A stretch of 20,695 bases of DNA from a candidate division WOR-3 bacterium (GTDB lineage Bacteria; SDB-A), in NCBI GenBank assembly GCA_016926475.1, contig JAFGON010000024.1:1-20695 (forward strand). Reading direction: 5' to 3'. Each line of letters begins with the position of its first letter. Position 1 is the stretch's first letter. The notes beneath the pieces are model-generated. The model was not told the origin of the DNA, made no database searches, and saw nothing but the letters and a program-made list of their open reading frames with translations. Shown here one piece after another: positions 1,547 through 19,652 of the stretch. The translations under genes and the position numbers were made by a program.

Positions 1547-2352
1547 TTTACAATTTCGCCGGAATACCTGGAATATTTCAAATAGACCGTGTCGGCGAGG
1601 GCTTCTTCGAGAGGTATGAAATTCCAACCGTCTTCCAAAAAAATGTCTATTATCTCTCCTAAGACGAAAGAGTTGATATAGTTCATGTGCAAAAGCATGA
1701 CAAGCGGTACGTCCCTGTCATATTTTTTCGTGTAAAAACTATCGTTTGCCAAAATCCTCTCTTCGATGTGAGAAATGTACTCCCTTTTGACAGAATCCAG
1801 AAATACAGTGTCACCGGAAGGCAGGGCATCGACGAAAGTCTTGTTGAACTTCCAATCGTCGTTGTCTATTGTCACCGGAGCGACCGTATAACCGTTTCTT
1901 CTCAGAGCTTGTAGAACAGAGTCCCTTTTTTCTGGGGTGTCGCCCATGCTCAGGCAGGGATACCTGAAATATTCCGGCCTTTTGCCGAAAAGAGTTGTCA
2001 GAAGGGAGTCGCAGATCAAGAAATCTTCAATGTATTCTTCCGCCGAGACGTCGTCGAGATCGCGGTGGGAATGGGTGTGGTTTCCGATGGAGTGCCCCCT
2101 GTTGACGAATTCGTTCATAAGTTCGAGGGCGAAACCGTTGATAGTTGAGGTCACTGTGAACCCCATGACCTTGACGTTTCTGGAATCGAGTGTGTCGAGG
2201 ATTCGGATGAAATAATCGTGCTTCTGTTCTCTTGTCAAGCCTCTGGTGTAGGTGAAAGGCAAGTCGTCTATAGTCAGCGCAACTCTCTTTTGCGCCGGGG
2301 CTGGTTGCGAGAAAACCACAACAAAGAAGAGGAAGAGCGGGATTTTTTTCAT
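1543..2352 (-). CDS. Secreted polysaccharide deacetylase (NodB-like)
   Basis: A 269-residue protein with an N-terminal signal peptide (MKK, a hydrophobic core to about residue 16, likely cleavage after APA at 20). A NodB-type deacetylase domain follows. Visible motifs are motif 1 TIDD (Asp29/Asp30), motif 2 NHTHSH with metal-binding His92 and His96, motif 3 FRYPC around Arg130, a D-x-DDW segment near 162-167, and the late LLHMN motif. Family members hydrolyse N- or O-acetyl groups on peptidoglycan, chitin-type oligomers or xylan, using a divalent metal. The precise substrate is unknown. It would act outside the cytoplasmic membrane. ATGA overlaps at both ends couple it to the aminotransferase upstream and the phosphatase downstream. 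Motif 3 reads RYP rather than the commoner RPP. Confidence 0.88.
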   Translation of the reverse strand: MKKIPLFLFFVVVFSQPAPAQKRVALTIDDLPFTYTRGLTREQKHDYFIRILDTLDSRNVKVMGFTVTSTINGFALELMNEFVNRGHSIGNHTHSHRDLDDVSAEEYIEDFLICDSLLTTLFGKRPEYFRYPCLSMGDTPEKRDSVLQALRRNGYTVAPVTIDNDDWKFNKTFVDALPSGDTVFLDSVKREYISHIEERILANDSFYTKKYDRDVPLVMLLHMNYINSFVLGEIIDIFLEDGWNFIPLEEALADTVYLKYSRYSGEIVK

Positions 2353-3542
2353 AAATGTTCCTTCACTACTTCGGAGAGAATTTTTATCCCTTTTTCAATC
2401 TGTTCTATCGAAGGGAAAGAGTAGTTGAGCCTTAAAGTGTTTTTACCCGAGGAATCACAGTGAAAGGGCTGTCCTGTTATAAAGGCGACGTTTTTTTCGA
2501 CCGCCTTGTAGAAGATTTGCTGGGCGTCTATTCGCTCAGGGAGTATGACCCACAGGAACATTCCTCCGTCGGGTTTCGACCATATAACACCGTCCGGCAT
2601 GTTATTTTCCAGAGAAGAGATCATCGCCTTGTTTTTGGGTCTGTAAACTTCAATGGCTTTTTTTATGGTCTCCTCCATTTTTCCCTGTGATATGAAATGG
2701 GAGAGTATCAGCTGGGTAAACGACGGGGTGCAGAGGTCCACGGATTGCTTGAGCATCACTATTTTGTCTATAAGTTCTTTTTGGGCTGTTATCCAGCCCA
2801 TTCTCATTCCCGGGAACAGCATTTTTGAAAAAGTCTTGAGAAGAACGACTCCATTGCCTTCCGACAATGTCCAAAGGCTGGGTAATACATTTCCTGTGAA
2901 GCTGAGCTCTCTGTATGGAGAGTCTTCGACAATGAGAATGTCCCTTTCTTTTGTGAATTTTAAAAGTTCTTTTCTTCTTTCAAGCGTCATCGTGATGCCT
3001 GAAGGGTTTTGAAAATCGGGTATAGTGTATATGAAAGCCGGAGAAGTATTTTTCTTCTCGAGTTCGTCGACGACCTTTTCCAGAGTGTCTATTTCCATTC
3101 CGCCGAAATCCATTTTGATTCCGACCATATTCGCCATGTCGCGCCTGAAAGCCTGTATGGCGCCGAGATAAGACGGCAATTCCATTATGACGGGCGTGTT
3201 TTCGTCCAAAAAGAGGCGGGATAATAAATCCAAACCCTGCTGGGAGGAAGAGGTCACGCAGATCTCTTCTTCGGTGGCCTTTTCGCCGAAGTCTGCCATG
3301 AATTTGACGAGGGAGGAAAGCATCTCTCCCTCTCCTGGAGTCGGTCCGTATTGCAGGGCGAGATACCCTTTTTCTCTTAAAACCTTTTCGGTTATTTCCG
3401 TAATGTCTTTTGTCGGAAAAAGCTTTGAATCCGGGAGGCCTCCGCCAAAGGATATTATGCCGGGTTTTCTCGTCATACTGAGAAGCTCTCTAATTTCCGA
3501 CCTTTTGATGCTCGAAGAAATCTTTGAAAATCTAAGCGCCAT
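2349..3542 (-). CDS. PLP-dependent class I/II aminotransferase (2-aminoadipate/aromatic type)
   Basis: A 397-residue fold-type I aminotransferase. It resembles the group holding LysN (2-aminoadipate aminotransferase), kynurenine aminotransferase II and the MocR catalytic domain. The N-terminus carries GIISFGGGLPD, typical of this group. The cofactor is bound by FQNPSG (Asn179), VEDSPYREL (Asp207, Tyr210), TFSK with Schiff-base Lys240, and GMRMGW (Arg247). NTLRLNYSF near the C-terminus holds the substrate carboxylate arginine. It is a cytosolic amino-group transfer enzyme; whether the donor is aminoadipate, an aromatic or a branched-chain amino acid is not decidable here. The ATG at 3542 has AGGAG 5 bases upstream. 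It is the first gene of the four-gene minus-strand operon and overlaps the deacetylase by ATGA. Confidence 0.88.
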   Translation of the reverse strand: MALRFSKISSSIKRSEIRELLSMTRKPGIISFGGGLPDSKLFPTKDITEITEKVLREKGYLALQYGPTPGEGEMLSSLVKFMADFGEKATEEEICVTSSSQQGLDLLSRLFLDENTPVIMELPSYLGAIQAFRRDMANMVGIKMDFGGMEIDTLEKVVDELEKKNTSPAFIYTIPDFQNPSGITMTLERRKELLKFTKERDILIVEDSPYRELSFTGNVLPSLWTLSEGNGVVLLKTFSKMLFPGMRMGWITAQKELIDKIVMLKQSVDLCTPSFTQLILSHFISQGKMEETIKKAIEVYRPKNKAMISSLENNMPDGVIWSKPDGGMFLWVILPERIDAQQIFYKAVEKNVAFITGQPFHCDSSGKNTLRLNYSFPSIEQIEKGIKILSEVVKEHL

Positions 3543-3662
3543 GACCTCTCCTTTTCCTTGTGAGAATTTATTATTATTGATAACCTTTTTTGCGGACGCT
3601 TTTTATTTTATCATAAATTGTCTTAAGTTTGTAGAACCAGAATGACACCAGAAAGGAGTTTT
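3543..3662. promoter_or_regulatory. Divergent intergenic region
   Basis: These 120 bases separate the leftward operon from the rightward helicase and must hold promoters for both. On the minus strand an AGGAGAGG ribosome site sits at 3552-3545. On the plus strand AAAGGAG (3652-3658) precedes a TTG at 3663. The centre is AT-rich (3565-3635). TTGATA at 3577-3582 could be a plus-strand -35, but no well-spaced -10 partner was found, so I do not place a specific promoter. Confidence 0.4.
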
Positions 3663-5984
3663 TTGGAAATCTCGGTTGGTGAACTTGTAAATTTCGTTTT
3701 TTGCGATAACGATCTGGAGTCGAACTTCAAGAGCATGGAAAAAACCAGGGTTGGTGGCGAAATCCACAGAGAACGCCAGGCCAGTATGTCGGAAAGCGGT
3801 GATTACGAGTCAGAGAAATATCTGAAACTGGATTTTGTATACGAGGGAAGAGAATTCACCATCAAGGGAAAAGCCGATGGCCTGTTGACGGAAGACGGCA
3901 TCACAACAGTGGAAGAGATTAAAACGGGCGAGATGTCCGGCAGAGGTGATTATGAAATACAAAAGCATCTCGCGCAGGCTAAATGCTACGCCTTCATGTA
4001 TTCCAAAATTTACGGCGAGAGTAATATATCAGTCAAACTTGTGTATATAGACGAAGAAAGGAAAATCGAGCAGAAAAAATTTCTTTTCAGCCATTCGGAG
4101 CTTGAAAACGACTTTTTTGAGATGTTCGAAAAATACTTCAAGTGGCTTTTGTTTTTGGAGAAAAGAAGAAATGAACGGGACAAATCCCTTTCTGAAGTTA
4201 GCTTCCCTCACGATACGTTCAGAAAAGGGCAGGAAGAGATGTTTTTTGCGGTCTTTGAAGCCGTGGAGAACTCAAAGACGCTCTTTGTCAGGGCTCCTAC
4301 CGGAATAGGAAAGACCGCGGCGACGATTTTCCCCTCTCTTAAATCCCTCGGAGCAGATCACGCCGAAAAGGTTTTTTATCTCACGGCGAAGACTACGACG
4401 AGGGAAGTTGCCCAGAACACGCTGAGACTTTTTTCACAAAAAGGGATGTCGCTGAAGAGCGTTTCTATAACGGCGAAGTCAAAGATATGCTTTTTGGGGC
4501 TGGATGTATGCGACGTAGATCACTGTCCTTACGCCAAGGGTTATTACGGGAGGGTCAAAACGGCGATTGTCGAAGCTCTGATGAATGAAGACCTGCTGAC
4601 GAGCGAGGAAATCGAGAAGTACGCGAAGATACACGGTATCTGCCCTTTTGAGTTCTCCCTCGACATATCAAGGCATTGCGACTTTATCGTCTGCGATTAC
4701 AACTACCTTTTCGATCCCAACGTATTTTTGAGGCGTTATTTTTTGGAAGATTCAGGCGATTTTGTCTTTCTGATTGACGAAGCCCACAACCTTCCTGACA
4801 GGGCGAGAGATATGTATTCCGCTCAGCTCAAAAGGTCTATGTTTTCGGAGAAAAAATATCTTCTGTCCGATTATTTAGCGGAGGATTCCTTTGAAGAAGT
4901 CGAAAATTTTTTTGAATTGATATTATCTAAAATTCCCGAAGAGGGATTCTGGATTCAGAGCAAACCCCTTGATGAAATTATCCCTGTTCTGCAGTCGTTT
5001 TCGGAGTGGATGGCTTTTTGGATGAAAGAAAATTACGGAAAAAAACATTACAATGAGATTTTGAAACTTTATTTTGACGTCCAGACCTACTTGAAAATAT
5101 TCGATTTATACGGTTCGAACTACGTCACGTATATCAAAGCCGTAGGAAATGACGTAGTGATAAAGCAGTTTTGTCTCGACCCTTCCAGGAATTTGAGAAA
5201 AGTTTTGAAAAAAGGGAGGTCGAGCATTTTCTTTTCCGCGACGATGAAACCCATGGAGTATTACAGGGACATTTTAGGCGGAGACGCAAACTCTTTGGAG
5301 CTCGAACTCGAATCGCCGTTTCCAGAGGAAAATCTGTCCCTGTGCCTTACGCCTTATATCTCGACAAAGTATTCTTCCAGAAATTTCAGTCTGTCTGAAG
5401 TCTGTTCGGTGATCCACGAGACATTTATGTCTAAAAAGGGCAACTACATGGCTTACTTCCCTTCTTACGCGTATCTTGAAAAGGCGATCGAGTCTTTCCG
5501 GTTAGAGTATCCGGACGTCAAAATCGCTTGTCAGAGTTCAATGATGACAGAAAAGCAGAGGCAGAGTTTTTTAAACAAATTCTCAAAATCGAGAAAAGAA
5601 GGACTTCTTGGGTTCGCTGTGATGGGAGGCGTCTTCTCTGAGGGAATAGACCTTCATGGCGACAGGCTATCCGGAGCCGTTATTGTTGGTGTCGGATTGC
5701 CGAAGATTTGTTTTGAGCTCGAGATTGTTAGGGAGTATTTTGAAAGGGAAAGGGAAGCTGGTTTTGACTTTGCCTACACCTACCCGGGGATGAACAAAGT
5801 ACTTCAAGCAGCCGGAAGGGTTATTAGAACCGAAAACGACAAAGGTGTCATTGTGCTAATCGACGCGAGGTTTTCAAGCGATAAATATCTGTCTCTTTTT
5901 CCGAAGGAGTGGTCCAATTACAAAGTTGTGTCGTCTGAGAAAGAACTCCGTACGGTTTTGAAAAGGTTCTGGCAAGGTGAATGA
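3663..5984 (+). CDS. PD-(D/E)XK nuclease-DinG/XPD-type DNA helicase fusion
   Basis: About 773 residues. The N-terminal part looks like a RecB/Cas4-family nuclease: EIHRER with a candidate His, Asp72 in KADGLL, the E-x-K pair Glu85/Lys87 in EEIKTG, and a downstream QAKCYA motif. A superfamily 2 helicase of the XPD/DinG branch follows: Walker A APTGIGKT (Lys217), DEAH box 372-375, SATM motif III, and QAAGRVIR motif VI near the C-terminus. Cys276, Cys283, Cys288 and Cys327 lie between Walker A and the DEAH box, where XPD-type helicases bind a 4Fe-4S cluster. The family unwinds DNA 5'-3' in repair or replication-conflict roles. An in-frame ATG at 3642 has no ribosome site. The TTG at 3663 has AAAGGAG 4 bases upstream and gives an N-terminus (EISVGELVNF) like family members, so it is preferred. 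It is divergent from the aminotransferase operon. Confidence 0.85.
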   Translation: MEISVGELVNFVFCDNDLESNFKSMEKTRVGGEIHRERQASMSESGDYESEKYLKLDFVYEGREFTIKGKADGLLTEDGITTVEEIKTGEMSGRGDYEIQKHLAQAKCYAFMYSKIYGESNISVKLVYIDEERKIEQKKFLFSHSELENDFFEMFEKYFKWLLFLEKRRNERDKSLSEVSFPHDTFRKGQEEMFFAVFEAVENSKTLFVRAPTGIGKTAATIFPSLKSLGADHAEKVFYLTAKTTTREVAQNTLRLFSQKGMSLKSVSITAKSKICFLGLDVCDVDHCPYAKGYYGRVKTAIVEALMNEDLLTSEEIEKYAKIHGICPFEFSLDISRHCDFIVCDYNYLFDPNVFLRRYFLEDSGDFVFLIDEAHNLPDRARDMYSAQLKRSMFSEKKYLLSDYLAEDSFEEVENFFELILSKIPEEGFWIQSKPLDEIIPVLQSFSEWMAFWMKENYGKKHYNEILKLYFDVQTYLKIFDLYGSNYVTYIKAVGNDVVIKQFCLDPSRNLRKVLKKGRSSIFFSATMKPMEYYRDILGGDANSLELELESPFPEENLSLCLTPYISTKYSSRNFSLSEVCSVIHETFMSKKGNYMAYFPSYAYLEKAIESFRLEYPDVKIACQSSMMTEKQRQSFLNKFSKSRKEGLLGFAVMGGVFSEGIDLHGDRLSGAVIVGVGLPKICFELEIVREYFEREREAGFDFAYTYPGMNKVLQAAGRVIRTENDKGVIVLIDARFSSDKYLSLFPKEWSNYKVVSSEKELRTVLKRFWQGE

Positions 5985-5989
5985 TTTTC

Positions 5990-6019
5990 AGACAAAAAAT
6001 CCAACCGATGTGATATGCT
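5990..6019 (+). promoter_or_regulatory. Candidate extended -10 promoter for the cyclase gene
   Basis: CAGACA (5990-5995, 4 of 6 to the -35 consensus) is followed after 18 bases by TATGCT (6014-6019) with an upstream TGA, forming a TG-extended -10. The box ends 6 bases before the ATG at 6026, and no Shine-Dalgarno site precedes that ATG. A transcript from here would begin at or next to the start codon. Alternatively the gene is read through from the helicase, 41 bases upstream. Confidence 0.35.
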
Positions 6020-6025
6020 AATCTC

Positions 6026-9000
6026 ATGAACCCTTTTCTACCCGGTGAAATTGACCTTGTTTTCGCGAAGAAGACCAGACCAGGGGCTCTTCTTTTTGCC
6101 GATGTCGTGGGTTTTACCGCTTTAAGCGAAAAATTCAGCGAAAGGGGAATCTCCGGCACCGGCGAACTGACCGAACTTTTGGATTCTTGTTTCGAGTCTA
6201 TTCTTTCTGTGGTCAGAAAGCACGGCGGCGACATAATCGAGTTTATAGGCGACGCGATATTAGTCAAGTATGAAAATATGGACCAGGCAAAAAAGTGTTC
6301 AACCCAAATGATCAAAACAATCAAATCCTTCTCGGACATCGAAACTTCCGCCGGTAAGTTTTCTCTTTCTATGAAAATCGTTCTGGGCAAAGGGAGCTGG
6401 AAAGAGCTCATACTCGGAACCCAAGAAAAACTCCTGCTGTTTCTCACAGGAAATATTTTAAAAGAGATGGCGAAGGCGGGAGAAAAAAAGGCTTTGATAA
6501 GCTTTGCTAAATCGGCAGAAAGAAGGAAAATGACAAGAAAAACCGACCTGAAGATGAAATTCAGGATAGCGGGAAAAAAGAAGTTTAACCCAAACATCCC
6601 TATTGAAATATCCAGAAAAAGTTCTCTCGGCGAATTCAGGTCTGTAGCCTGCGTGTTTTTCCAGATAAAAGGTTACGATGAAGACAACCCGGATTATGAA
6701 GACATCAACAGAATAATAGTCATCGCACAGAAAACAGCGGAAAAGTTTGGAGGCTGGTTGAATTGCGTGGACAACGTCCGCAAAAATGGGAGCAGGATAC
6801 TCGTCCTTTTCGGAGCTCCAACAGCTTACGGGGGTGAGGGTGAAAGGGCGGTTAAATTCGCCATGGAATTGACACGCCTTTGTAATGAATCCGCCCAAAT
6901 ATCTGTCTGTGCGAGCGCCGGGGCAGGGTTTGTCTTCGCGGGGATGATCGGAGATAAAAAGAGGAAAAAGTATTCGGTCATAGGCGATGCCGTAAACACA
7001 ACTTCAAGGATTCTCGACGGGCTTGAAAAGGGGGCTATTGTCGTCACCGAGGATTTATTCAGGATGACTAAAGACAAAATTCGTTATTCCCGTTTGAAAT
7101 CCGTCCGGGTGAAAGGCAAAAAATACCCGCTGAAAAGGTACAGACCGGAAAGTGTAATATTTGAAACTCCCGTTTTGGGACGATTTCTTGGAAGAGAAGA
7201 AGAAATCAGAAGGGCTCGTGAAATGATTTCAAAGGGCAGTTGCTCGATTATGATAAAAGGCGAACCCGGAATAGGAAAGACGCGATTTCTGGATGAATTG
7301 TCGAGGTTTGCCGAGAAAAAAGGTTACAAAACCTTCAAGACCAGAGCCGAGGAAAACAGACCTGCTTTCGAACCATTTGCCGGTCTCGTCCGGGGTATGT
7401 GCGCGATTGAAAAAAGCGACGGCGACAGCGAAATCGTCTTCAAGATTAAAAAAACCATAGGAGAGCGATCGGCGGACGATAAAATAAGCTCAGCGGGTGT
7501 TTTGTCGGAGATGTTTTTCGGCATAGAATCAGGTGACGAGAGGTTCAAGAAGCTGAACCCTGAAATCCGAAAACAAAATTTAGTCGAAGCTCTTTTGGAG
7601 TTGATGAAATCTTTTCAGGGTAAACTCTGTGTTGTATTTGACAGTTTTCAGTGGGTTAAAAAGGAGGATTTTGACGTTTTGGATTTTATCCAGAGCTCTC
7701 TCCTTGGTTACTCAAGGGCGGAAGTTTGTTTTTTAATGGCTTCGAGAAAAGACGAATTTCCAGCCACAAATATAAAAGCATTTGAAAATGCGAAAATTGA
7801 AATTGGACCCATGAACGAAAACTATTTCAAGATTTTTACCGAAAAACTGCTGGGAGATAAAAAAATCGAAAAGAGCCTTTTGAACACCATCATGGCGAAA
7901 TCCGACAGAAATCCTTTCTACGCTGAGCAGATACTATTTTATCTTAAAGACAAAAAAATGATTTCGGAAAAAAAAGGAACATGGAGCGCGGAGATAAACT
8001 ACAAGAATGAAAACTTGCCGGAAAATCTCTTTTCAATAATCGTCTCGAGAATAGAAAAAATCGGAGAAAGCGCCAAGGACTGCCTTAAAGTGGCAAGCGC
8101 GGTCGGCATGAATTTCAGAGCCGAGACGCTGGAAAATGTGTTGAAAAAAAGTGTATCAAAAGAAATAAAACTCGGAGTCGAGGCGGGAATTCTGAGCGTG
8201 ATTGACAGGGGTGAAACTGCTTATTGTTTTACACACGCGCTCTACAAAGACGTACTCTACCAGACAATAATTTCGGAAGAGAAAAAAAATATCCACGGCG
8301 CGATAGCCAGGTATTTTGAGAAAAAACTGAACACGAAGACGAGAGAAAACCTTTCTCTTGTATCTATGCATTTCGACCTTTCCGAAAACTGGCGAAAAGC
8401 CTATGGTTATATGTTTGATGCCGGTCTTAAATCAGCCGAGAAGTATCTGAACGAAGAGGCGAATTTTCATTTTGAAAGAGCCCTGATAATAGCGAGAGAC
8501 CACCTGAAATCGAAAACCATGGAAGCGAATGCCGCCAAAGAACTCGCGAATCTATGTTATTACACAGGCGAATACGATAAAAGCCTTCACTGGACGTCCG
8601 TTTTTGAAAAATTGTCCCCGAAGAATTCTCTGGTAGGATCAAAAGTAGCCAGATTCAGATCCAGGTGCGCGAGAGGTGAAAAGGAGTTCAGAAAAACCCT
8701 TAAATCTTTGGAGAAAAACATCAAAGCCCTGAAAACTTCTTCGCAGATACAAAAGAGGGAGAGGATACAAAATTATATTTCCCAAGCCTTTCTCCACAGA
8801 AGTCTATACGAACCCCAAAAAGCTCTTGAGGTGATCGGCCTTGCGGAAAATGAGCTGAAAAAACTCGACAGTCATTTTCTGGACGACAAAATAGAGACAA
8901 GCATTCTGCAGGAAAAAGCTTCAGCCATGATTTTCAGTTTCGACTACGCGAACGCGATGAAATATTATGAAGAAGCTTTCAACAAAGCAGTAAAAACTGG

Positions 9001-10144
9001 AGACAAGATAACTGCCGCCGCTTCAATTTCAAACATAGGTTTTATTCGGCACTACAAGTGTGAATACGAAAAAGCTCTCGAAGAATATCAAAAAGCGGAA
9101 GAGATCACTCGTGAAATCGGCGACAACAAGGGGCTTTGTCTTTCTTTGATGAATTTGGGATGCGTTTATAACGACATAAACAAAATTGGCAAATCGATTT
9201 TGTGTTTTGAAAAATCTCTCGGTATCGCTCTTGAAATGAATTTTAAAAAGCAGATTATTTTCAACTACATTAACTTAGGCAACAGTTACAACAATATGAG
9301 GATTTCAAAAAAAGCGATTGAATTCACCAAAAAAGCTTTGCCCTATGCTTTGGAGCTAAATGATTACGTGGCTTTGGCGAGAATAAACGAAAATTTAGGA
9401 AACATCTACAGGAAAAAAGGAGACGTTGAAAAGGCCATTAAGCACTACAACGATGATTTGAAATACCTCGAATTGTCTCAAGACTACAAATGGATGTTTT
9501 ATGTTTTGGAGAAAATGGCTGATATCGAATTTGATATGATGAATTACAAAAAGTCTCTTGATTACGCGAAGAAAGCTCTGGTTTTGAGCAGAAAACAGGA
9601 TTATCCCGAGGGGCAGACAGATATTCTGATGTTCATCGCACGCCTCTTTTTGGAAACCGGAAAATACCAGAAAGCAGAAATATACGTAAAAAAAGCTGAA
9701 AGCCAGGTCGGTATGTGCAAGGACAAGGAGGTTACAGCTCTATACTACATCAACAGAGCATACTTTGAAGAAAAAAAAAGTAAAACCGAAGGTTTGCCCA
9801 TAAAGCATGAAGGGGTTGACAGGGTTGAAGAGTTGATGAACAAAGCACTTGAAATAATTGAAGACGTGAAATTTGAAAGTTTGAAACTAGAATATTACTA
9901 TTCCTGGGGTTTGATCTTCAGAGAAAGAGAACTGTTAAGAGAATCTCTGCAAAACCTAAAAGAGGCCATGAAATTGGCAAAAAAAAGGAATGACGAAGAA
10001 AGAAAATTAAAAGTCTATACGCAGATGTATTTGCTGTATAAAAAAACAGACAGCCAGAAAGCGCGTTTTTTCTATGAAAAGGCGAGAAAGGCTTTATTGA
10101 AAACCCGAAACTACAAAAGAGTCGAGTGGCTAAAAAATATTTAG
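6026..10144 (+). CDS. Soluble adenylyl cyclase-like protein: tandem class III cyclase domains, NTPase, TPR
   Basis: A 1372-residue cytosolic protein, with no membrane segment or signal peptide. Cyclase domain 1 (about 18-160) has FADVVGFT with metal Asp26 and FIGDAI with metal Asp76; the Asn/Arg pair of the usual G-D-x-V-N-x3-R motif is replaced by lysines (146, 150). Cyclase domain 2 (about 203-380) lacks both metal Asp residues (Gln213, Ser256) but keeps GDAVNTTSR with Asn324 and Arg328. The two together can form one complete active site, as in animal soluble adenylyl cyclase. An AAA/STAND-type NTPase follows: Walker A GEPGIGKT (412-419, Lys418) and probable Walker B Asp539 in VVFDSF. From about 780 to the end there are repeated helical pairs of TPR type, for example near INENLGNIYRKKGDVEKAI. 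Expected product is cAMP; cGMP cannot be excluded. The ATG at 6026 has no ribosome site; MNPFL places FADVVGF at residue 24, as in homologues. Confidence 0.85.
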   Translation: MNPFLPGEIDLVFAKKTRPGALLFADVVGFTALSEKFSERGISGTGELTELLDSCFESILSVVRKHGGDIIEFIGDAILVKYENMDQAKKCSTQMIKTIKSFSDIETSAGKFSLSMKIVLGKGSWKELILGTQEKLLLFLTGNILKEMAKAGEKKALISFAKSAERRKMTRKTDLKMKFRIAGKKKFNPNIPIEISRKSSLGEFRSVACVFFQIKGYDEDNPDYEDINRIIVIAQKTAEKFGGWLNCVDNVRKNGSRILVLFGAPTAYGGEGERAVKFAMELTRLCNESAQISVCASAGAGFVFAGMIGDKKRKKYSVIGDAVNTTSRILDGLEKGAIVVTEDLFRMTKDKIRYSRLKSVRVKGKKYPLKRYRPESVIFETPVLGRFLGREEEIRRAREMISKGSCSIMIKGEPGIGKTRFLDELSRFAEKKGYKTFKTRAEENRPAFEPFAGLVRGMCAIEKSDGDSEIVFKIKKTIGERSADDKISSAGVLSEMFFGIESGDERFKKLNPEIRKQNLVEALLELMKSFQGKLCVVFDSFQWVKKEDFDVLDFIQSSLLGYSRAEVCFLMASRKDEFPATNIKAFENAKIEIGPMNENYFKIFTEKLLGDKKIEKSLLNTIMAKSDRNPFYAEQILFYLKDKKMISEKKGTWSAEINYKNENLPENLFSIIVSRIEKIGESAKDCLKVASAVGMNFRAETLENVLKKSVSKEIKLGVEAGILSVIDRGETAYCFTHALYKDVLYQTIISEEKKNIHGAIARYFEKKLNTKTRENLSLVSMHFDLSENWRKAYGYMFDAGLKSAEKYLNEEANFHFERALIIARDHLKSKTMEANAAKELANLCYYTGEYDKSLHWTSVFEKLSPKNSLVGSKVARFRSRCARGEKEFRKTLKSLEKNIKALKTSSQIQKRERIQNYISQAFLHRSLYEPQKALEVIGLAENELKKLDSHFLDDKIETSILQEKASAMIFSFDYANAMKYYEEAFNKAVKTGDKITAAASISNIGFIRHYKCEYEKALEEYQKAEEITREIGDNKGLCLSLMNLGCVYNDINKIGKSILCFEKSLGIALEMNFKKQIIFNYINLGNSYNNMRISKKAIEFTKKALPYALELNDYVALARINENLGNIYRKKGDVEKAIKHYNDDLKYLELSQDYKWMFYVLEKMADIEFDMMNYKKSLDYAKKALVLSRKQDYPEGQTDILMFIARLFLETGKYQKAEIYVKKAESQVGMCKDKEVTALYYINRAYFEEKKSKTEGLPIKHEGVDRVEELMNKALEIIEDVKFESLKLEYYYSWGLIFRERELLRESLQNLKEAMKLAKKRNDEERKLKVYTQMYLLYKKTDSQKARFFYEKARKALLKTRNYKRVEWLKNI

Positions 10145-16994: not shown

Positions 16995-19652
16995 TTGTGC
17001 CGTTTCAAATTCGTCTGGAGAACTTATCAGAAAAGAGTTCTCGACGAACTTTACGGACACATGGAAGACGACAGCCTTCATGTTGTCGCCGCTCCGGGAT
17101 CAGGTAAAACCGTCCTCGGAATTGAGACTATCATAAAACTCGGTAAGCCGGCTCTTGTGCTTTCCCCTACATTGACTATAAGGGACCAGTGGATAGATAG
17201 GTTTGCGGATCTTTTTCTAAAAGACCCGGAAGAAGTCCAAAAATTGGTTTCAAAGAATCTTGCTGAACCAAAACCTTTGACATCAGAGACATACCAGTCC
17301 CTGCATTCTTTCATTAAAGAAAACAAAACGAGAAACATTCCGGAAAATTATTTTGAAACTCTCGTTCTCGACGAAGCGCATCATCTAAGGACCTCATGGT
17401 GGAAAAGCCTTCTCAATTTCAAAGAAAAGATGAAAAAATGCAGGATAATAGCTCTTACGGCCACACCGCCATACGATGTCACTTATTTCGAATGGGAGAG
17501 GTATACACGACTCTGCGGGCCTATAGACTCCGAGATATCCGTTCCGGAACTTGTCAAAAACGGAGACCTCTGCGCCCATCAAGATTACATTTACCTTTCC
17601 AAGCCGGACCAAAGCCAACTGAAAAAGCTTCTCGACTACAAAGAGAAAATCAGGGAGTTGACAGACAGGATTCTGAATGACCAAAATTTTGCCAAACATG
17701 CCGCTTCCCATCCCTGGATAGCGGATTTTGAAAGGAACATGTCCGAATCACTGGGTCAACCCCGGTATCTCACATCAATGCTTGTATATCTCGAGAAACA
17801 TAAATCAACAAGCACCTCAAAGTCATTAAACCTGGATAATGCCGTGAAAATTCTGACAGGAGGAAAAGGAGGACTGCCAGGATTCAACCTGAAATGGTTT
17901 GAAATTTTTCTCAATTTCGTGTTTTACGAGGATAAAACAAATCATTTTTCCAAATATGAAGCGGTTCTGGAGTTAAAAAAAGAACTCGAAAGGTTGGGGG
18001 TGATTGAAAAGAAAAAAATCTTTTTGTCGAATAACCCGAAGATAAAAAAGATGCTTGTAAAAAATCCGAGTAAACTCTCGAGTATAGCAGACATAGTACA
18101 AATGGAATACAGAGGGCTTGAGAATAAACTGCGTATGGTGATTTTGACCGATTTTATATGCCTTTCCTATCTACCGAGAACACAGGATGATAAGCCTTCT
18201 CTCGTCAAAATTGGCGTTGTTCCAATATTTGAAACTCTCAGGCGAGTAGGTGAAATCGGATTGAAAACGGGTGTTCTTTGCGGAAAACTCGTCCTCTTTC
18301 CAGGGGTTGCATCACCCGCGGTAATTCATTTTCTAGAAAAGGAGGGGGTCGAAGACGCCAGATCGAAAATACGCCCCGCGGCGTTCGACGAAAGATTTGT
18401 CGAGCTCAAACTTGAAGGGAAGACAAAAGAACTTTCAGTTAAAGCCATGACAAAAATTTTCAAAGAAGGGCACATAAATGTTATCGTTGGAACACAATCT
18501 CTTTTGGGGGAAGGATGGGATGCCCCTTGCATCAACACAATTGTGCTCGCAAGTTATGTCGGTTCCTATATGCTATCAAACCAAATGAGGGGAAGAGCGA
18601 TAAGAATAAACCCTGAAAACCCGGGAAAGACAGCAAATATTTGGCATCTGGCATGTTTGGACCCTACTTCCGAGGATTTTGGGGAGGATTTTACAACCCT
18701 TGAAAGGCGTTTTTTGTCTTTCACTGGCGTAGCCATGGACAAACCCTTGATAAGAAACGGCATAAAGAGAATGGCGCTGGATGATTTCGATTTAAAAAAC
18801 CGCGGGTATGAACTATACAACGGTTTTTGCCTAAAAAAAGCTCTTGAAAGGGATAGTCTTGAAAACAGGTGGAAAGAAGCTCTCGAATCGGGAACTTCTC
18901 TGGAAGAGGGGCTTTCTCTGAAAAAAGATTGGCGGAAGGTGGCTGGGCTGAAAAGTATTATACTATCCGAAACTATCAGAGCATTGTTTTTTCAAGGGGT
19001 CGGCTTTGGAATTTTCTTTTTTCTTCTCATAATCAGAGATTTTCTGTATTCAAGACACATTTCCCCACCCTTTTGTTTTGGTGTGGTTTTATTTGGGATT
19101 GTTGTCTCCGCGTTGTTTTCGTCATATTATTTTGTAAAAGCGTTTGTTCTTTTTATAAAGCATGGCAGCCTTGAAAAGAATATGTGTCAAGTTGGTAAAT
19201 GCGTTTTGGAAACTTTGAGGGGAGAAGGTTTTGTGAAAACCCCTTTTTCAAAAATTCAAATCAGCGCTCAGGAGGAGTTCGGAGAGGTTGTCCTGACAAT
19301 GAAAGGGGCCACTCTTTACGAGAAAACTTTGTTTTTCAACTGTATGGAAGAGATATTCGGTGTTGTTAAAAATCCGAGATACTTGTTGGTGAGAAGGTCT
19401 GATTTCACGGGATTATTGTCTTTTTTAAGCAAGAGGTTTAAGAAAACAGATTTTCACAACGTCCCGGAAATATTCGGTAAAAATAAAACTTTAGCCAAAA
19501 AATATGCCAAAAATTGGTCGAAAAGAATAGGTAAAGCCTTTGTTTTCTACACGAGAAACGAAAGAGGGAGAATGCTTTTACTCAAAGCAAGGGAGTATGC
19601 CCCTTCATCTGATAAAACGCCGGAAAGCCGGCGCGTAAACAGGTGGGTGTGA
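16995..19652 (+). CDS. SF2 DEAD/DEAH-box helicase with a transmembrane hairpin
   Basis: An 885-residue superfamily 2 helicase-like ATPase. Motifs in order are a Q-like opening (WRTYQKRVLDEL), Walker A AAPGSGKT (Lys38), DEAH 126-129, TATPP near 155, LLGEGWDAP near 508 (motif V), and QMRGRAIR (from Gln530, motif VI with arginine fingers). After the helicase core come two hydrophobic segments, about 664-680 and 693-714, joined by a short loop RDFLYSRHISPP. Some 170 further residues follow (basic near KKYAKNWSKRIGK). A nucleic-acid translocase held to the membrane is unusual. The substrate, DNA or RNA, is unknown; the core resembles type III restriction and UvrB-like ATPases, but no nuclease motif is seen. 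The start is a TTG without a ribosome site, chosen because the frame is closed at 16962-16964 and the Q-like motif follows at once. It overlaps dinB by GTGA. Confidence 0.8.
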   Translation: MCRFKFVWRTYQKRVLDELYGHMEDDSLHVVAAPGSGKTVLGIETIIKLGKPALVLSPTLTIRDQWIDRFADLFLKDPEEVQKLVSKNLAEPKPLTSETYQSLHSFIKENKTRNIPENYFETLVLDEAHHLRTSWWKSLLNFKEKMKKCRIIALTATPPYDVTYFEWERYTRLCGPIDSEISVPELVKNGDLCAHQDYIYLSKPDQSQLKKLLDYKEKIRELTDRILNDQNFAKHAASHPWIADFERNMSESLGQPRYLTSMLVYLEKHKSTSTSKSLNLDNAVKILTGGKGGLPGFNLKWFEIFLNFVFYEDKTNHFSKYEAVLELKKELERLGVIEKKKIFLSNNPKIKKMLVKNPSKLSSIADIVQMEYRGLENKLRMVILTDFICLSYLPRTQDDKPSLVKIGVVPIFETLRRVGEIGLKTGVLCGKLVLFPGVASPAVIHFLEKEGVEDARSKIRPAAFDERFVELKLEGKTKELSVKAMTKIFKEGHINVIVGTQSLLGEGWDAPCINTIVLASYVGSYMLSNQMRGRAIRINPENPGKTANIWHLACLDPTSEDFGEDFTTLERRFLSFTGVAMDKPLIRNGIKRMALDDFDLKNRGYELYNGFCLKKALERDSLENRWKEALESGTSLEEGLSLKKDWRKVAGLKSIILSETIRALFFQGVGFGIFFFLLIIRDFLYSRHISPPFCFGVVLFGIVVSALFSSYYFVKAFVLFIKHGSLEKNMCQVGKCVLETLRGEGFVKTPFSKIQISAQEEFGEVVLTMKGATLYEKTLFFNCMEEIFGVVKNPRYLLVRRSDFTGLLSFLSKRFKKTDFHNVPEIFGKNKTLAKKYAKNWSKRIGKAFVFYTRNERGRMLLLKAREYAPSSDKTPESRRVNRWV
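19618..19633 (+). other. GC hairpin just before the dinB start
   Basis: CGCCGG (19618-19623) and CCGGCG (19628-19633) form a perfect 6-base-pair stem around the loop AAAG. It sits in the last codons of the helicase gene, 15 bases upstream of the dinB GTG. No U-run follows, so it is not a standard terminator. It could affect ribosome access or RNA stability between the two genes, or be a coincidence of coding. Confidence 0.35.

Follow-up and report, generated by a model that had tools for sequence, protein, structure and literature searches.

Animal soluble adenylyl cyclase (sAC; ADCY10), with human structures that include 4CLF and 4CLK, is usually presented as a bicarbonate sensor, with cyanobacterial and myxobacterial cyclases as its nearest relatives. 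Bacterial sAC orthologues have been known since 2002–2004 (Roelofs and Van Haastert 2002; Kobayashi, Buck and Levin 2004; both as cited in PMC6660944); like the protein reported below, they join a cyclase to a P-loop NTPase region and are related to animal sAC. According to a 2026 paper, most non-mammalian animal sACs lack one or both bicarbonate residues, and two that were tested are controlled by pH (PMC12867704). The transmembrane adenylyl cyclases AC5, AC8, and AC9 are likewise pseudo-heterodimers with one split site, but are membrane-bound, lack a STAND/TPR arm, and are thought to stem from a separate fusion (PMC9552081). PH0952 (6MFV), MalT (8BOB), and Apaf-1 (3SFZ) share the ATPase module fold and the helices that follow it with the protein described here, whereas their effector parts are not cyclases.

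The window analyzed is a 20,695-nucleotide stretch of DNA from a WOR-3 bacterium. Sequence and structural modeling make it likely that its ORF 6026–10144 encodes a cytosolic ADCY10-type class III nucleotidyl cyclase with one C1/C2 site and a STAND/TPR arm that may control it. It adds a further member to the orthologues of 2002–2004 and belongs to an uncultured, WOR-3-like lineage in which the family has many copies. What is new is this member itself, its missing bicarbonate site, the large expansion of the family, and a putative two-gene split cyclase elsewhere in the genome.

Results

Two tandem class III cyclase domains occupy the N terminus of a single soluble chain and are followed by an ATPase and a repeat arm (Table 1). 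The MNPFLP start is kept in close relatives, and an artefact or frameshift is unlikely given that both the full frame and the start are conserved in related genes.

Table 1. Coordinates of the cyclase gene, its domains, and its key residues within the window
Feature	Position	Strand	Basis
Two-domain cyclase/STAND ATPase/TPR gene, 1372 aa, ATG at 6026	6026..10144	+	ORF, conserved start, Pfam domains
Cyclase domain C1 (about residues 18-165), putative metal-ligand half-site	6077..6520	+	ADCY10 C1 profile match, C1 clade, model
C1-C2 linker	6521..6622	+	Low model confidence, pLDDT <50 at 165-172 and 178-199
E72, place of human sAC bicarbonate lysine K95	6239..6241	+	Alignment; K95 role from PMC12867704
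D26, metal ligand, = ADCY10 D47	6101..6103	+	61/61 relatives
D76, metal ligand, = ADCY10 D99	6251..6253	+	61/61 relatives
K117, = ADCY10 K144, pyrophosphate lysine	6374..6376	+	Alignment; role from PMC12867704
K146-K150 of C1, lost Asn/Arg positions; A149 at place of bicarbonate arginine R176	6461..6475	+	Alignment
Cyclase domain C2 (about residues 200-378), putative catalytic Asn/Arg half-site	6623..7159	+	ADCY10 C2 profile match, C2 clade, model
Q213, first metal-Asp place (human C2: N298)	6662..6664	+	Asp in 0/61 relatives
C247, where ADCY10 has base-reading lysine K334 (the two nearest relatives have Asp)	6764..6766	+	Alignment
S256, second metal-Asp place (human C2: C342)	6791..6793	+	Alignment
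S317, = ADCY10 T405, adenine contact	6974..6976	+	Alignment; role from PMC12250328
N324, = ADCY10 N412	6995..6997	+	N in 59/61 relatives
R328, = ADCY10 R416	7007..7009	+	R in 60/61 relatives
STAND-type P-loop ATPase and helical/winged region (about residues 386-788)	7181..8389	+	AAA_16, fold matches
Walker A GEPGIGKT (412-419)	7259..7282	+	G412, G415, G417, K418 invariant in 21 relatives
D539, Walker B Asp, end of strand 534-539	7640..7642	+	Sequence and model
TPR arm (about residues 789-1372)	8390..10141	+	TPR_12 at 998-1068, TPR_MalT at 1101-1226 (Pfam)

A template-free model of residues 1–380 (pLDDT 86.6, pTM 0.87) predicts that the two domains pack as a C1/C2 pair. It superimposes on human sAC with a Z score of 37.8 over 355 residues (rmsd 2.6 Å), spanning both domains, and on AC5, AC8, and AC9 with Z scores of 28–34. 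How the ATPase sits relative to the cyclase pair is not reliably predicted (pTM 0.54).

The first-pass annotation had proposed a pseudo-heterodimeric cyclase on a single chain, its one active site split between the two domains, a view that the predicted packing and the residue equivalences both support. All eight residues that it named lie where it had placed them in the 1372-residue ORF, and alignment to human ADCY10 confirms that the Asp and Asn/Arg positions are equivalent (Table 1), with K146 and K150 of C1 aligning to D173 and L177. C1 thus has both metal-binding Asp residues and Lys at the Asn/Arg positions, while in C2 Gln213 and Ser256 replace the Asp residues and N324 and R328 are retained. 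Among 61 non-identical bacterial two-domain relatives, both C1 Asp residues are kept in all 61 and the first C2 Asp in none; the Asn and Arg are kept together in 58 of the C2 domains and in only 3 of the C1 domains. Judged from these alignments, the split half-site pattern is family-wide and more than chance. By alignment and predicted packing, a single site has its full set of residues, contributed by C1 and C2 together, whereas the second possible site, its mirror image, lacks them. All four residues are present in 14 of 19 cyclase domains that had initially been classed as single.

The proposed NTPase/TPR arm was also borne out, by a STAND ATPase fold and TPR repeats (Pfam and fold matches). 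Pfam places AAA_16 at residues 386–556, and the predicted ATPase fold matches PH0952, MalT, and Apaf-1. Walker A and B motifs, together with a predicted MalT/Apaf-1-like fold and helical repeat arm, point to a STAND-type module. A P-loop NTPase region after C2, typical of sAC, is recognized here by its presence and its STAND fold.

Discussion

The first-pass annotation had spoken of a homologue-like architecture, and the profile, tree, and AU results go further, indicating true homology of both domains to ADCY10. A bacterial two-domain profile matches ADCY10 in one stretch with 227 bits. When C1 and C2 were treated as separate taxa, each proved homologous to its counterpart: ADCY10-C1 fell within the bacterial C1s and ADCY10-C2 within the bacterial C2s, in both cases with planctomycete and acidobacterial proteins as neighbors, and an AU test rejected the tree that joins both ADCY10 domains (p = 3.2e-5). 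Because the ADCY10 domains join the bacterial C1s and C2s separately and their pairing is rejected, ORF 6026–10144 encodes an sAC homologue. The same results speak against convergence, in which a single-domain cyclase would have been duplicated independently to give the bacterial and the animal two-domain proteins; transmembrane adenylyl cyclases, held to have fused separately in early eukaryotes (PMC9552081), offer a precedent, but we consider such an origin extremely improbable here. A closer sister relation between the window's subfamily and ADCY10 received an AU p value of 0.40. Proteins from Planctomycetota (L095) and Blastocatellia (L108), which have the same two-domain layout and half-sites, branch as sister to ADCY10 for C1 as well as for C2 and stand nearer to it than the window protein does. 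The fused one-site C1/C2 pair with a STAND/TPR arm occurs in several bacterial phyla and has common ancestry with ADCY10 domain by domain; therefore, the fusion is older than the split from the animal gene. The rarity of the architecture implied earlier does not hold, since it is spread over these phyla and this genome alone encodes at least 13 such proteins.

As in ADCY10, two cyclase domains are fused and a single site is complete, with D47, D99, K144, N412, and R416 all kept; the predicted C1/C2 packing is the same, the C1 and C2 domains are orthologous, and a P-loop STAND region follows C2. In ADCY10 this region is predicted (PMC12802110), and the likeness there is one of presence. The window protein differs from ADCY10 at K95 (E72), R176 (A149), and K334 (C247), in its changed FDKG loop, and in its shorter C1-C2 linker. 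The changes at K95 and R176 bear on the bicarbonate part of an earlier suggestion that the protein senses bicarbonate or calcium like mammalian sAC. Homology to ADCY10 would favor such sensing, as would the bicarbonate response of some single-domain bacterial cyclases (PMC3918592). However, both charged residues of the mammalian-type bicarbonate site are gone, none of the 61 relatives has both, and non-mammalian sACs without the pair are unresponsive (PMC12867704). L095 and L108 keep the Lys equivalent to K95, although not R176, whereas the window protein keeps neither. Direct bicarbonate control is therefore unlikely from the sequence, and we give a bicarbonate- or calcium-sensing cyclase of the mammalian kind very little credence. 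The pair is missing from all bacterial members sampled, in line with the 2026 finding that such control is mainly confined to mammals (PMC12867704).

Substrate and activity are uncertain, because Cys247 stands at the K334 position and C2 has an altered FDKG loop. Guanylyl cyclases typically have an acidic residue at the base-reading Lys position. The replacement of this Lys by Cys here and by Asp in the two nearest relatives, along with Ser at the T405 position, would fit a changed base specificity in the window's small subfamily, whose product would then be cGMP or some cyclic nucleotide other than cAMP. Of the 12 other two-domain paralogues of the genome, 7 keep Lys or Arg at the K334 position together with Thr at that of T405. 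Cys, however, is not the guanylyl-type residue, the K334 position varies in other bacterial relatives too, and the ADCY10 Lys touches the base only via water (PMC12867704). A changed specificity is thus unlikely, if worth keeping in view. The same doubtful standing applies to its fuller form, a nucleotide-switched Cys/Asp subfamily whose product, under STAND/TPR control, would be cGMP or a cyclic pyrimidine nucleotide, in a lineage with many sAC-type paralogues as parallel sensor channels. Alternatively, the cyclase pair may be a nucleotide sensor or switch that makes little or no product and leaves the work to the STAND/TPR arm. The base-pocket changes, one degenerate paralogue in the genome, and the resemblance of the 1–380 model to 6YII, an ATP-binding cyclase-like protein (Z 25.6), are in keeping with such a pseudo-cyclase. 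Retention of all metal, pyrophosphate, and transition-state residues argues against it, as does the degree of conservation between close relatives, which is highest in the cyclase part (57–58% identity versus 44–47% over the full length), and we rate it as somewhat less probable still.

For the favored reading, a working ADCY10-type cyclase, a route from signal to product can be proposed. C1 would provide D26 and D76 for two metal ions and K117, whose ADCY10 counterpart K144 is the pyrophosphate lysine (PMC12867704), and C2 would provide N324 and R328 for the transition state. We infer that the NTPase/TPR arm regulates the cyclase: the TPR arm may bind a ligand or partner, the STAND module may alter its shape or oligomeric state when it exchanges nucleotide, by analogy with MalT and Apaf-1, and this change may determine how well the C1/C2 pair closes on its substrate. 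Cyclic-nucleotide-binding proteins encoded in this genome, in which five cNMP-binding matches were found, could then sense the product, probably cAMP. In two related genomes, a cNMP-binding/GGDEF gene adjoins a two-domain paralogue. The role of the C-terminal NTPase/TPR region of sAC is poorly understood, and the bacterial members are proteins in which it could be worked out.

Two other assignments were set aside. Matches to PycC of the Pycsar antiphage system were weak and generic (best E 2.4e-7), with no adjacent dedicated effector gene, and the NCBIfam model TOMM_kin_cyc scored 153.9 bits, far below its cut-off of 705.75, probably reflecting only a shared cyclase-ATPase order. The gene neighbors, a DinG-like helicase and a flavin reductase, gave no functional hint, the window contains no tRNA, and a promoter and terminator scan of it gave no usable result. 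Neighboring ORFs are similar in size and order in a same-genus relative.

The paralogue count given above rests in part on a scan of the contigs of this 2.1-Mb genome with a narrow alignment. As for the remaining 5 of the 19 domains first classed as single, two form a split gene pair, a putative cyclase divided over two genes on contig C31 of the genome, and one probably comes from a two-domain protein truncated by a contig end.

A conserved one-site arrangement in two cyclase domains

The window protein contains two Guanylate_cyc stretches, an AAA_16 ATPase at residues 386-556, and TPR repeats (Pfam). When all PDB sequences were searched with residues 1-380, human soluble adenylyl cyclase (sAC; ADCY10) was the top cyclase match (E 1.7e-19): its C1 aligned with residues 20-142 and its C2, in the same order, with residues 199-330. 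Residue-level alignment placed the metal ligands D26 and D76 on ADCY10 D47 and D99, and N324 and R328 of C2 on N412 and R416. Q213 and S256 of the window C2 occupy the positions of N298 and C342, so the Asp residues are absent from the human C2 too; K146 and K150 of C1 occupy those of human D173 and L177. The first-pass annotation, which had described a single active site split between the two domains, was thus correct in all its residues and coordinates.

Two-domain relatives came from the genome of the window, from other members of the same genus and family, and from further groups, whether their genomes were named or not. Among 61 non-identical bacterial two-domain proteins, both C1 Asp residues were always kept (61/61) and the first C2 Asp never (0/61), while Asn and Arg were present together in C2 of 58 and in C1 of 3. 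All four residues were found in 14 of the 19 domains initially set aside as single. The half-site asymmetry is therefore a conserved family property and not a quirk of the window gene. C1 domains with Asn and Arg plus both Asp occur in two Thermoflexales proteins (L094 and L096) and in one from a groundwater bacterium (L098), as expected if C1 was formerly a complete domain; these proteins are possible evolutionary intermediates.

A template-free AlphaFold2 model of residues 1-380, built from 21 sequences, had a mean pLDDT of 86.6 and a pTM of 0.87. Human sAC was its first Foldseek match (E 2e-26, TM 0.77 on query), and superposition on 4CLK covered both domains (Z 37.8, 355 residues, 2.6 A; VIA-align 2). 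AC9 came next after sAC (Z 34.4), and single-domain cyclases matched mainly C2 (Z about 18). The two domains are thus predicted to pack as a C1/C2 pair, as the first-pass annotation had proposed.

Common descent with ADCY10

When 21 two-domain proteins from bacteria, the window's included, were combined into a profile, it matched ADCY10 as one unbroken stretch of C1, linker, and C2 (227 bits, E 3e-66), compared with 128 bits for the best single-domain cyclase. Bacteria-only C1 and C2 profiles each picked the matching ADCY10 domain (117 versus 32 bits and 106 versus 18 bits, respectively). In a tree of 76 domains, with the domains of each protein as separate taxa, C1 formed one clade (100/99) and C2 another (100/98); ADCY10-C1 fell among the former and ADCY10-C2 among the latter, each beside the same Planctomycetota and Blastocatellia proteins (98/90 and 99/95). 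Forcing both ADCY10 domains together was rejected (p 3.2e-5). The bacterial proteins and ADCY10 are thus homologous and not merely analogous, and the duplication and fusion are older than the split of these bacterial genes from the animal gene. Both halves of the tree put the window's subfamily close to the ADCY10 group, with another sampled bacterial group nearer; the tree is silent on the direction of gene transfer between bacteria and eukaryotes.

Regulation and substrate

Every criterion tested places the window protein in the broadly defined sAC-type family and outside the bicarbonate-regulated mammalian sAC type. The bicarbonate-binding residues of human sAC are K95 and R176 (PMC12867704, PMC12250328). 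These positions are E72 and A149 in the window protein, and the pair was found in none of the 61 bacterial relatives. Most non-mammalian animal sACs are without one or both residues, and two that were tested responded to pH instead of bicarbonate (PMC12867704, 2026). This leaves bicarbonate control as the least well-supported element of the first reading. The base-reading lysine K334 is replaced by Cys247 in the window protein and by Asp in its two nearest relatives, and the 405 position is Ser in the window's subfamily; 7 of the 12 other two-domain paralogues of the genome have Lys or Arg at the K334 position with Thr at the 405 position. These base-pocket changes may affect both the substrate and the activity level of the window cyclase.

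C-terminal to C2, Walker A is intact (GEPGIGKT, 412-419), with key residues invariant in 21 relatives, and the Walker B Asp is D539. AAA_16 was present in 21/21 sampled relatives, and recognisable TPRs in most. A model of residues 1-898, in which placement of the cyclase against the ATPase is unreliable (pTM 0.54), matched MalT, Apaf-1, and PH0952 (a STAND ATPase together with its TPR arm). By analogy with the mode of action of MalT and Apaf-1, we infer that the arm may regulate the cyclase.

Paralogue expansion and prior work

Publications have described bacterial sAC orthologues from 2002 (Roelofs and Van Haastert) and 2004 (Kobayashi et al.) onward, as cited in PMC6660944; the window protein therefore joins an already known kind. 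New here are a check of the one-site arrangement in 61 proteins from bacteria, a tree in which ADCY10 is entered domain by domain, the finding that these bacterial members lack the bicarbonate pair, and a large lineage-specific expansion in a WOR-3-like genome. No prior report of the expansion was found in the literature, where our search covered the lineage itself little.

The window's genome (2.15 Mb, 106 contigs) has 27 Guanylate_cyc matches; the counts for three related genomes are 22, 23, and 31. Its two-domain sAC-type proteins number at least 13, plus a degenerate one and contig-end fragments, and their genes take up about 2% of the genome. In the degenerate paralogue, perhaps a pseudo-cyclase, the first metal Asp is His and the catalytic Arg is Phe. 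A 6.1-Mb genome (G121) has 63 Guanylate_cyc matches. One genome of the window's family (G003) is recorded as 'Desulfuromonas sp. SDB' (LKUE01000156.1), a name that is probably wrong.

Coordinates of cyclase genes and other features
Feature	Location	Strand	Remark
Two-domain cyclase/ATPase/TPR gene	window 6026-10144	+	ORF, 1372 residues
DinG/XPD-like helicase	window 3642-5984	+	N-terminal PD-(D/E)XK/Cas4-like nuclease match
DEAD/ResIII helicase	window 16995-19652	+	long hydrophobic membrane-like stretches C-terminally
Two-domain genes, at least 13	window's genome (G000) contigs C3, C8, C24, C33, C49, C54, C62, C73 (two), C88, C90, C93, C105
Degenerate two-domain paralogue	L057; G000:C33 near 13.4 kb	-	ORF, 680 aa
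cNMP-binding/GGDEF gene and paralogue	L125:1317-2495, 2458-6390	-, +	divergent pair
cNMP-binding/GGDEF gene and paralogue	L121:855-1955, 2061-5867	-, +	divergent pair
Window-genome counterparts	L122:85-1185, L126:7-3855		both at contig ends
Two-gene cyclase pair	L144:1172-3145, 3085-5019	+, +	G000:C31 about 18671-22518

Genomic neighbours

Each genome has five cNMP-binding matches, which could act as receivers. Two related genomes carry a cNMP-binding/GGDEF gene oriented divergently from a neighbouring two-domain sAC-type paralogue, and the contig-end counterparts in the window's genome are compatible with the same layout. The encoded protein is possibly a cyclic-nucleotide-controlled diguanylate cyclase; the divergent layout suggests, without proof, that two-domain cyclases feed c-di-GMP signalling.

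A two-gene pair (L144), with counterparts at L141, L142, and L143 and thus kept in four genomes, encodes in each gene TPR repeats and one C-terminal cyclase domain. The first keeps both metal Asp and has lost Asn/Arg; the second keeps Asn/Arg and the adenylyl-type Lys/Asp base residues and has lost the Asp pair. The pair resembles an obligate heterodimeric cyclase encoded by two genes.

The window gene itself lies downstream of the DinG-like helicase gene and faces a flavin reductase gene. A same-genus relative has neighbour ORFs similar in size and arranged in the same order; these neighbours gave no functional hint. The DinG-like helicase gave a strong match (E 2.9e-130) to a DinG model associated with type IV CRISPR, and no CRISPR genes were identified within the window. 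The second helicase, with its membrane-like stretches, is an unusual combination.
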